Assembly (NCBI RefSeq): GCF_000421645.1
Contig: NZ_ATXK01000002.1
Location: 558,001 to 622,000, forward strand
Length of the DNA: 64,000 nucleotides
Direction: 5' to 3'
Source of the DNA: Aurantimonas coralicida DSM 14790
GTDB lineage: Bacteria > Pseudomonadota > Alphaproteobacteria > Rhizobiales > Rhizobiaceae
In this document: positions 3,749 through 45,728 of the stretch, in pieces
Layout of the letters: each line of letters opens with the position of its first letter
Position numbering within the stretch: position 1 is the stretch's first letter
Notes under the pieces: model-generated
Databases searched by the model: none
What the model was told of the DNA's origin: nothing
The model's input: only the letters and a program-made list of their open reading frames with translations
Made by a program: the position numbers and the translations under genes

Positions 3749-3822
3749 GGTCTCGCCCGTCTGTCATGGTGCTTGCCAAAAGCGACCGTAGAAGTCGCGC
3801 CAGACGAGAGGAAGCCGATTCG

Positions 3823-4755
3823 ATGCAGCCAGCGCCAGCCGTTTTCCGATTTGCCCCGAGCCCGAATGGCGAGCTGCATCTCGGCCATGCCTATTCGGTG
3901 CTGGTCAATCACCAGATGGCGCGGGAAGCGGGCGGCGAGTTCCTGCTGCGCATCGAGGATATCGACCAGGCCCGCTGCACCCGCGAATACGAACGCCAGA
4001 TCGAAGACGACCTCGCCTTTCTGGGCGTCGACTGGGACGCGCCGCCGCGCCGCCAGTCGGAGCATTTTGCCGACTACGCCGCCGCGCTGGAAGCGCTGGC
4101 CGATGCCGAGCTGATCTATCCGGGCTTCATGTCGCGCGGCGAGATCCGGGCCTTTGCCCAGCGCTACGAAGACGACGAAGCGACGCCCTGGCCGCGCGAT
4201 CCGGACGGGGCGCCGCTCTATCCGGCGCTCGACCGTGACCTGTCGAGCCGCCAGCGCGAGCGGAAAATGCGCGACGGCGAGCGCTTTGCCTGGCGGCTGG
4301 ACACGGCCAAGGCGGTCGCCACGCTGGGCACGCTGACCTTCGCGGAAACCGGCCTTGCGCCTGAAGCGGGTGGCGGCGAAGTCGTGGCGCAGCCGCTGGA
4401 ATGGGGCGACGTGGTGCTCGGCCGCGTGGAGACGCCGACGAGCTACCATCTGTCGGTGGTGGTCGACGACGCGGTTCAGGGCGTGACCCATGTGGTGCGC
4501 GGCCGCGACCTGTTCCCGGCGACCAGCATCCACCGCCTCTTGCAGGCGCTGCTCGGCCTGCCGGTGCCGCGCTACCACCATCACGAGCTGATCCTGGGGC
4601 CCGACGGGCGCAAGCTGTCGAAAAGCGCCGGCGACACCGCGATCCGCGCCTTGCGCGAGGCCGGGCTCGGCGCCGAGGACATTCGCCGCATGGTCGGCCT
4701 GCCGGCTGCGCCGCCGGCCCATGACGTCGGCCGGTCGGCCAGACGCTCCGGCTAG
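3823..4755 (+). CDS. gluQ: tRNA glutamyl-Q(34) synthetase (GluQRS)
   Basis: A 310-residue truncated glutamyl-tRNA synthetase paralogue. It keeps the class I catalytic core, with HLGHA (HIGH-type motif) at residues 19-23 and KLSKS (KMSKS-type) near residue 265, but ends without the anticodon-binding domain. Such proteins attach glutamate to queuosine at position 34 of tRNA-Asp instead of charging tRNA-Glu. The ATG at 3823 is preferred over an upstream in-frame ATG at 3766 because GAGAGGAAG precedes it and family homology starts at once (FRFAPSPNGELHLG). Its presence implies the cell makes or imports queuosine precursors; see the VUT transporter at 45.0 kb. Confidence 0.93.
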   Translation: MQPAPAVFRFAPSPNGELHLGHAYSVLVNHQMAREAGGEFLLRIEDIDQARCTREYERQIEDDLAFLGVDWDAPPRRQSEHFADYAAALEALADAELIYPGFMSRGEIRAFAQRYEDDEATPWPRDPDGAPLYPALDRDLSSRQRERKMRDGERFAWRLDTAKAVATLGTLTFAETGLAPEAGGGEVVAQPLEWGDVVLGRVETPTSYHLSVVVDDAVQGVTHVVRGRDLFPATSIHRLLQALLGLPVPRYHHHELILGPDGRKLSKSAGDTAIRALREAGLGAEDIRRMVGLPAAPPAHDVGRSARRSG

Positions 4756-44630: not shown

Positions 44631-44927
44631 ATGTCACGCGCCTGCGAACTCACTGGCAAGGCTGTCCAGTCCGGCAACAATGTCAGCCACGCGAACAACA
44701 GGACGCGTCGCAAGTTTCTGCCGAATCTGTGCCAGGTCACGCTGATCTCCGACGCGATGGGCCAGCGCTATCGTCTGCGCATCTCGGCGCATGCGCTGCG
44801 TTCGGTCGAGCACCGCGGCGGTCTCGACGCGTTCCTGGCCAAGGCCGACGCGGCCGAGCTGTCGCAGCGCGCCCGTCTGCTGAAGCGCCAGATCGCCAAG
44901 AAGATCGCCGAGACGGCAGCCGCCTGA
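44631..44927 (+). CDS. rpmB: 50S ribosomal protein L28
   Basis: A 98-residue basic ribosomal protein with the L28 run [20 protein letters not shown] at the start, followed by [10 protein letters not shown], and [15 protein letters not shown] later. The length is typical of the longer alphaproteobacterial form. ATG 44631 matches the family start; an in-frame ATG at 44580 adds unrelated residues. Confidence 0.97.
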
Positions 44928-44943
44928 TCAGGCCGTGCTGACG

Positions 44944-44961
44944 GGGGCGCGCCAGCGCCCC
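44944..44961 (+). terminator. Hairpin after rpmB
   Basis: GGGGCGC (44944-44950), loop GCCA and GCGCCCC (44955-44961) form a perfect 7-bp stem 16 nt past the rpmB stop. No U-run follows, so termination may be partial or Rho-assisted. Confidence 0.4.
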
Positions 44962-45007
44962 TGATATCCGACATATCCGGGCCGGTCGCCTTCGGGCGTC
45001 CGGCACA

Positions 45008-45038
45008 AACTGGTTCCATCACCCAGGTTAAAAAAATG
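45008..45038 (+). promoter_or_regulatory. preQ1-I-like riboswitch candidate
   Basis: CTGG (45010-45013) and CCAG (45023-45026) form a short stem around TTCCATCAC, followed by GTTAAAAAA and the ATG of the VUT gene. The order of features (GGTTC, then CACCC, then an A-rich tail of about ten bases) is that of the type I preQ1 aptamer, an H-type pseudoknot of about 34 nt. The loop triplet CAT could pair with the start codon ATG, which would hide it when ligand is bound. VUT/YhhQ transporters of queuosine precursors are known targets of preQ1 riboswitches. The stem is short, so this is a strong candidate and not a certainty. Confidence 0.62.
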
Positions 45039-45728
45039 CAGCTCCTGCGCATCTATCTGCTTCCCGTCATCGCCATGACGGCGATCGTGCTCGCGTCGAA
45101 CGTCGCGGTGCAGTTCCCGGTCTTCGCCCAGATCGGCTCGCTGCAGCTGGCCGACATCCTGACCTACGGCGCCTTCACCTACGCCTTCGCGTTTCTCGTC
45201 ACCGACCTGACCAACCGTCGCTATGGCCCGGCCATCGCCCGGCGCGTGGTCTATATCGGCTTTGCCGCCGCGGTCGCCTGCTCGATCGTCGTGCCGCCGG
45301 TGCTCTACGATCTCGGCTTCCTGGAATATGCGACGGCCGCCGAGCGGCTGCTGCGAATCGCCATCGCCTCGGGCGGGGCGTTCCTGGCCGCGCAGCTCCT
45401 CGACATCGCGGTGTTCAACCGCCTGCGCCAGGAAAGCTGGTGGCGGGCGCCGGCGGCGTCGTCGCTGTCGGGGTCGGTGGTCGACACGATCACCTTCTTC
45501 ACCGTCGCCTTCGCGCCGTTCTTCCTGTTCCTCGGCCCCAATGACGGCTTCGCGCTGGAAAGCGCGCCGCTGCTCGGCCTGATGGCCGTGGAGGCACCGC
45601 GCTGGGTATCCTGGGCGATCGGCGATTTCACGGTGAAGCTGTTCATCGCGGTGTTCGCGCTGGTGCCCTACCGGATCATCATGCAGCATTTCATGCCGGT
45701 CCGGCCGGTGGCGGCCGCCGGCATCTGA
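45036..45728 (+). CDS. VUT family queuosine precursor transporter (YhhQ-like)
   Basis: A 230-residue inner-membrane protein with about six helices. The VUT/YhhQ marks are LLPVIAMTAIVLASNVAVQF at the start, AFLVTDLTNRRYGPAIARR near residue 55, and the late SGSVVDTITFFTVAF motif. E. coli YhhQ imports preQ0/preQ1. The start codon lies inside the candidate preQ1-I pseudoknot, and GluQRS elsewhere in the window uses queuosine-modified tRNA, so function and regulation agree. Confidence 0.88.
   Translation: MQLLRIYLLPVIAMTAIVLASNVAVQFPVFAQIGSLQLADILTYGAFTYAFAFLVTDLTNRRYGPAIARRVVYIGFAAAVACSIVVPPVLYDLGFLEYATAAERLLRIAIASGGAFLAAQLLDIAVFNRLRQESWWRAPAASSLSGSVVDTITFFTVAFAPFFLFLGPNDGFALESAPLLGLMAVEAPRWVSWAIGDFTVKLFIAVFALVPYRIIMQHFMPVRPVAAAGI

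Follow-up and report, generated by a model that had tools for sequence, protein, structure and literature searches.

How might a bacterium regulate a transporter gene whose start codon appears to lie inside the RNA structure that precedes it? This question is raised by positions 45008-45038 of the window, the whole stretch of 64,000 nucleotides analyzed here, in which a preliminary description noted a preQ1-I-like order of sequence elements running into the start of a YhhQ-type gene. We found that order at the same place: positions 45010-45038 read CUGGUUCCAUCACCCAGGUUAAAAAAAUG, and the 3′ end of this element is the VUT/YhhQ start codon. The gene assignment also stands, as the ATG at 45036 opens a 230-amino-acid reading frame that matches Pfam Vut_1 (PF02592; 90.9 bits, cut-off 27.2) and NCBIfam TIGR00697, “queuosine precursor transporter” (88.4 bits, cut-off 50.95). 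The frame does not reach NF008406, a preQ0/preQ1 transporter model (111.4 bits versus a cut-off of 252). The parts of the element and the neighboring genes are collected in Table 1, in which numbering follows the E. coli crystal construct and position n corresponds to window position 45008+n.

Table 1. Parts of the candidate element at the VUT start, with adjacent genes
Feature	Window position	Strand	Basis
P1 5′ strand, C2-U3-G4-G5	45010-45013	+	No variation among the 60 distinct rows of alignment A1, the rows having been picked beforehand by a pattern with the P1 stem
Aptamer loop, U6 U7 C8 C9 A10 U11 C12 A13 C14	45014-45022	+	Eight of nine letters as in E. coli type III
Putative anti-start strand CAU, C9-A10-U11 of the loop		+	Role by analogy with PMC10622847
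C14, presumed preQ1 specificity base		+	Role by analogy with PMC10622847
P1 3′ strand, C15-C16-A17-G18	45023-45026	+	Alignment A1 and E. coli comparison
Shine-Dalgarno-like AGGU, half within P1	45025-45028	+	Sequence; AGG kept in 142 of 151 rows
L3 tail, GUUAAAAAA, A-rich strand predicted to lie in the minor groove of P1	45027-45035	+	A-tract conserved in A1; role by analogy with PMC10622847
A25-A27 of the L3 tail	45033-45035	+	
AUG start codon, predicted P2 3′ strand A28-U29-G30, opposite U11, A10 and C9	45036-45038	+	Compensatory change relative to E. coli; in-frame counts
Position 31, first base of codon 2, C opposite C8; no pair in the UUC loop type of the window	45039	+	
VUT/YhhQ/QPTR queuosine-precursor transporter gene	45036-45728	+	Open reading frame and Pfam/NCBIfam matches
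rpmB (ribosomal protein L28), nearest upstream gene on the same strand	44631-44927	+	TIGR00009, 80.5 bits, cut-off 48.3; the scanned stretch began one codon earlier

The element had been described as a type I aptamer, an assignment that we rejected on the basis of its AC motif and loop; it resembles instead preQ1-I type III, the type reportedly defined in the McCown 2014 survey and represented by E. coli yhhQ. The E. coli yhhQ riboswitch has a crystal structure and reporter data (PMC10622847), and it provides a reference against which each position can be read. The MAFFT alignment (A2) misplaces the E. coli tail, and the comparison was made by hand-anchored numbering. The two elements share the gene family downstream, a loop of the form UUCC-N-UCAC that begins with UU, is rich in pyrimidines and places AC before the P1 3′ strand, an A-rich L3, and a P2 composed of U11-A28, N10-N29 and C9-G30. 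Loop positions 6 to 14 agree in eight of nine letters, the exception being A10, in the anti-start strand, and the nine pocket positions U6, U7, C8, C12, A13, C14, A25, A26 and A27 are identical, as is the G5-C15 pair under the ligand. Three pairs have changed on both sides from E. coli to the window: 2-18 from U-A to C-G, 3-17 from G-C to U-A, and 10-29 from C-G to A-U. The last of these changes turns AAGG, the Shine-Dalgarno sequence that forms the E. coli P2 strand, into AAUG, which carries the start codon. Because the 3′ strand of P2 is AUG and not AAGG, we regard the element as a variant of type III and not as a plain member. This comparative evidence favors the earlier suggestions that the element overlaps the start codon and that the loop CAU pairs with AUG. 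Among members of the phylum outside the Alphaproteobacteria, 27 of the 30 best yhhQ leaders carry a UUCCCU loop (25 by pattern, and two with longer tails, L262 and L280, by reading), and the remaining three (L279, L281 and L282) do not.

Membership in type III rests on this position-by-position comparison because model scores do not decide the matter. At gathering threshold, Rfam had no match in the 64-kb window. A permissive scan of 44800-45150 gave five sub-threshold matches, one of which was PreQ1 (RF00522), aligned at 45004-45043 with 12.6 bits (E 6.3, cut-off 39). RF00522 had no match at E≤10 in the window's own genome, nor did Rfam PreQ1 in 20 further leaders of the family searched in permissive mode. 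With the same library, the experimentally studied type III leader of E. coli yhhQ had no Rfam match at E≤10 either, so a low Rfam score cannot refute membership in type III. The preliminary description held that a poor covariance score would count against it; the score is indeed poor on paper, but it has no refuting force, given that the E. coli control was missed too. A covariance model built from 20 type III leaders of non-alphaproteobacteria, with no alphaproteobacterial row (R2), ranks the element first in the window, yet weakly (14.5 bits, E 0.46; next match 12.2 bits). Of 24 family loci, R2 recovers two at E≤1, and one site among ten control loci scored 13.9 bits. Conversely, the family model (R1) matched A-tracts in the E. 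coli stretch and missed the yhhQ leader, and under strict filters its class-wide search gave matches in two of 385 genomes, namely the window's own and one place that reads as the interior of another gene. Single-sequence folding lends the element no support: the 61-nucleotide fold of the leader is no more stable than its shuffles (z 0.14), and in the lowest-energy fold the P1 5′ strand pairs with an upstream CCGG instead.

The distribution of the element among relatives is considerably more informative than these scores. A VUT homologue is present in 188 of 199 genomes of the window's family (Rhizobiaceae, order Rhizobiales, GTDB). We compared 70 VUT leaders from the family, comprising the 30 best matches and 40 picked by hand from further down the list, and found the motif CUGG-U[UG][CG]CAU-NN(N)-CCCAG-NN-U-A-tract-UG in 65 of them, each with the loop CAU. 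Leaders L013, L031, L052, L058 and L059 are without the motif. The preliminary description would have been undermined had the stem and the A-rich tail varied among relatives, and both are kept. A strict pattern, in which codon 2 does not end in T, occurs in 255 of 394 family genomes, and among the matches listed there was none to the reversed control. Across the order, 18 of 397 genomes match it: 18 of the 21 that belong to the window's family and none of the other 376. By eye, the start-codon form appears in none of 29 VUT leaders from alphaproteobacterial families other than the window's, taken from the best matches among 76 genomes (the position of L234 is unsure). Two of the leaders examined, L210 and L211 (both of family f74), have a different preQ1-I-like pseudoknot candidate that precedes the start codon, roughly 10 to 40 bases ahead of VUT; its P1 would be CAAG/CUUG, its tail is A-rich, and CGG lies opposite CCG. 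In L211 it reads GGCCAAGUCGCCGCACCCUUGCAAAAAACGG.

A scan of named genomes returned at least 118 stretches with the motif, and carriers among the matches listed include Mesorhizobium, Rhizobium, Sinorhizobium meliloti, Neorhizobium, Shinella, Brucella, Bartonella, Aureimonas and Aurantimonas. A VUT frame follows the motif in 104 of 118 such stretches (71 of 80 plus 33 of 38). Two others, L152 and L174, end before the gene, L174 beginning like VUT, and 12 are pattern matches in other groups, without VUT. In Bartonella L110, L117 and L137, P1 starts with U rather than C (UUGG/CCAG), which gives a U-G closing pair. At loci L100, L103, L108, L149 and L167, a GC-rich hairpin with a U-run, terminator-like by eye, ends directly at the 5′ side of P1, and VUT may therefore need read-through from the preceding gene.

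Across alignment A1, the sequence of the element is near-invariant, A-tract included, and in its 62 rows P1 and the three P2 pairs with AUG never vary. A1 thus gives no covariation in P1 or P2, since its rows were picked by a pattern that holds the stem, CAT and ATG and makes them invariant. In the whole-structure shuffle control of A1, three cells changed on both sides, a value matched in 102 of 500 shuffles. The whole-structure shuffle controls are not impressive, and the case for covariation rests instead on a rule that concerns loop base 8.

This rule links loop base 8 to position 31, where codon 2 begins. Positions 7, 8 and 31 are free in the strict pattern, whereas CAT and ATG are fixed, and the 150 matches listed (more matched) fall into three loop types. 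All 68 UGG-CAU loops are followed by AUGC, and all 13 UGC-CAU loops by AUGG, such that position 31 is complementary to loop base 8 in both types. Among the 69 UUC-CAU loops, the base after AUG is A in 45, C in 14, U in 10 and G in none. As a rough background, G follows ATG in 32% and C in 27% of 255 long reading frames in these genomes, taken with mechanically assigned starts. The rule is obeyed by all 100 loci of a set used for tree building (UGG/C 34, UGC/G 7, UUC/A 30, UUC/C 18, UUC/U 11) and by all 33 further named VUT loci (UGG/C 18, UGC/G 2, and UUC with A 8, U 3, C 2); AUGG follows none of the UUC loops in either set (0 of 59 and 0 of 13). Codon 2 of the UGG type is CTG, CAG, CTC, CCC, CAA, CGA, CGG or CTA and encodes Leu, Gln, Pro or Arg, which indicates that the base is kept, not the residue.

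The best tree, built from 100 VUT proteins, implies 7 changes of loop type and 25 of the base that follows AUG. If just the well-supported branches are counted, fewer changes of loop type are required (UUC 3, UGG 2, UGC 2), and an independent-pairs test yields two usable pairs (three or four on all branches) with none opposed, too few for significance. These sequences suggest that, in some members of the family, the pseudoknot helix takes in the first base of codon 2. Read most simply, base 8 of a G7 loop would pair with base 31, and that of a U7 loop would be held in a base triple as in E. coli.

The ribosome-binding sequence is part of the same arrangement. The element reads CCCAGGA or CCCAGGU, in which the final G of AGGA or AGGU precedes AUG by eight bases and P1 includes A17-G18; a reading of the leader as one without a Shine-Dalgarno sequence was accordingly rejected. 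Of 151 rows (146 distinct), 117 have AGGA. AGG is retained in 142 rows; the frame could be assessed in 139 of these (all but L060, L070 and L152), and in every one the motif AUG is in the VUT frame. The other nine rows, from eight genomes of Aureimonas and a relative, have AGCC in place of AGG, and in eight of the nine the motif AUG is out of the VUT frame, L016 being the one in frame. In these eight rows, the closest ATG or GTG that is in frame with VUT is found 13 to 16 bases downstream. All nine AGCC rows are of the UGC/AUGG type, and AUGGA could therefore now act as a Shine-Dalgarno sequence. This change of frame where AGG is lost supports two conclusions: elsewhere AUG is the genuine start, and the P2 strand is retained for the sake of the RNA even when it is not the start codon. 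In L156 (Aureimonas ureilytica), the motif AUG opens a five-codon frame whose stop overlaps a VUT-frame GTG, as in translational coupling.

We consider it highly probable that the element is a preQ1-I type III-like translational OFF switch in which P2 buries the start codon. What argues for this in the sequences is the element itself, its conservation, its association with VUT, the compensatory change relative to E. coli, the covariation between loop base 8 and codon 2, and the altered frame in rows that have lost the Shine-Dalgarno sequence; the identity of the ligand, the direction of control and the three-dimensional fold are what we infer. Under this model, the leader mRNA would fold P1 (CUGG/CCAG), preQ1 would bind between P1 and P2, and the loop CAU would then pair with the start codon AUG to form P2; in some members of the family, loop base 8 would also pair with codon 2 at its first base. 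Because the Shine-Dalgarno AGG overlaps the P1 3′ strand, the bound form would mask the ribosome-binding sequence together with the start codon and prevent synthesis of the preQ0/preQ1 importer. Without ligand, P2 would open and translation would begin.

Is the natural ligand necessarily preQ1? The genome around the window speaks to what its bacterium may need to take up. GluQRS, which the preliminary description had placed at 3.8 kb, is indeed encoded at window positions 3766-4755 (378.5 bits, cut-off 250), and the genome contains QueF (129.6 bits, cut-off 86.9) and TGT. By TIGR00364, its best score for QueC is 29 bits against a cut-off of 150.3, and the sole PF06508 match (22.9 bits, cut-off 22), considered as a QueC candidate, was rejected as MnmA. 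With QueF present and no QueC by TIGR00364, the bacterium probably imports preQ0, and with QueF, TGT and GluQRS present as well, import matters. QueC exceeds the TIGR00364 cut-off in 20 of 60 genomes searched and in 10 of 36 of the window's family, leaving 26 of 36 without it, the window's included; import of preQ0 or preQ1 may thus be common in the family (QueF was sought in the window's own genome). The VUT protein QPTR of Bartonella henselae, expressed in E. coli, is described as carrying preQ1 and preQ0, and queuine at high concentration, in a paper whose main text is without the word “riboswitch” (PMC11570991), and for Sinorhizobium meliloti queC and queF mutants an effect on HeLa cells is described as restored when preQ1 is added (PMC3568095).

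Some of these observations lend weight to an alternative that we nonetheless regard as unlikely, namely that the same riboswitch fold has another 7-deazapurine (preQ0 or queuine) as its natural ligand in all or some lineages, likeliest in those with the G7 loops UGG and UGC. A window genome that looks like that of a preQ0 importer would fit it, as would the range of compounds carried by B. henselae QPTR. So would position 7: in E. coli, U7 is reported to touch A27 and the ligand edge in a U7-A27-preQ1 triple (PMC10622847), and this position is G in 81 of the 150 matches listed. Opposing it, the window and A1 alike retain U6, C14 and A25-A27, the E. coli relative is reported to prefer preQ1 over preQ0 about 138-fold (PMC10622847), and the window element itself has U7.

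The remaining alternatives dispense with a ligand, with the pseudoknot or with the element altogether. Since the comparison reveals pairing around the start codon, one might imagine a fixed structure of the loop CAU against AUG that sets basal translation with no response to a ligand; the unpaired U6, U7, C8, C12, A13, C14 and A25-A27 match the E. coli ligand pocket region, and the element precedes a queuosine-precursor importer, which makes this improbable. Even less plausible is a conserved sequence with no pseudoknot that serves as an operator for a protein or as a ribosome contact: near-invariance of the element across the family is what such a site would produce, but it would predict neither the joint changes of loop base 8 and codon 2, which give G-C as well as C-G, nor the compensatory pairs relative to E. 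coli. That the leader resembles preQ1-I by chance, as the low Rfam score and the lack of a folding signal might suggest, is scarcely credible given the strict pattern in 255 of 394 family genomes with no reversed-control match among those listed and the single occurrence of GGTTCCNTCACCC on both strands of the window, ahead of VUT.

We return to the type III-like OFF switch, which seems reasonably likely to represent a fourth preQ1-I subtype, one in which the whole start site serves as the aptamer. P1 would contain the Shine-Dalgarno sequence and P2 the start codon, and in two of three interchanging loop types P2 would also draw in the coding sequence through the first base of codon 2, such that an RNA sensor would constrain the second codon of the protein. 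One lineage would have moved its true start downstream and used the P2 strand AUGGA as a Shine-Dalgarno sequence, making the two signals interchangeable as the sequestered strand, and the G7 types may have altered ligand specificity. Our literature search, mostly at the level of titles and abstracts, found no alphaproteobacterial or start-codon form, and the sequence list of the 2014 survey may include such leaders. If this reading is correct, at least 255 species (one genome each), with nitrogen-fixing rhizobia, Bartonella and Brucella among the carriers, would control queuosine-precursor import by a riboswitch that goes unreported at Rfam thresholds in the window. The element would be a compact natural case of a ligand-bound pseudoknot that sequesters the start codon directly, with a sensor that reaches codon 2. 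The P2 strands AAGG of E. coli, AUG of the family and AUGGA of Aureimonas would form a natural series in which the expression platform changes while the pocket stays, and which 7-deazapurine these bacteria sense would become directly testable.

Set beside known systems, the element shares with preQ1-I types I and II (Carnobacterium, Thermoanaerobacter and B. subtilis; RF00522) the H-type pseudoknot plan and the A-rich tail, and with type II, as described in PMC11625349, the AC before the P1 3′ strand. Types I and II differ from it in having another loop and no start codon in P2, and the window element is sub-threshold to RF00522. Its departures from E. coli type III are a P1 of CUGG/CCAG with an overlapping Shine-Dalgarno sequence, an L3 of 9 nucleotides as opposed to 14 in the natural E. 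coli leader, and, in the G7 variants of relatives, a P2 that seems to extend into codon 2. SAM-II and other “direct occlusion” riboswitches are likewise described as using a ligand-stabilized pseudoknot in which the P2 3′ strand is a translation signal (PMC10907184, PMC9373788). Those riboswitches have a different aptamer and embed the ribosome-binding sequence, whereas the window element would embed the start codon.
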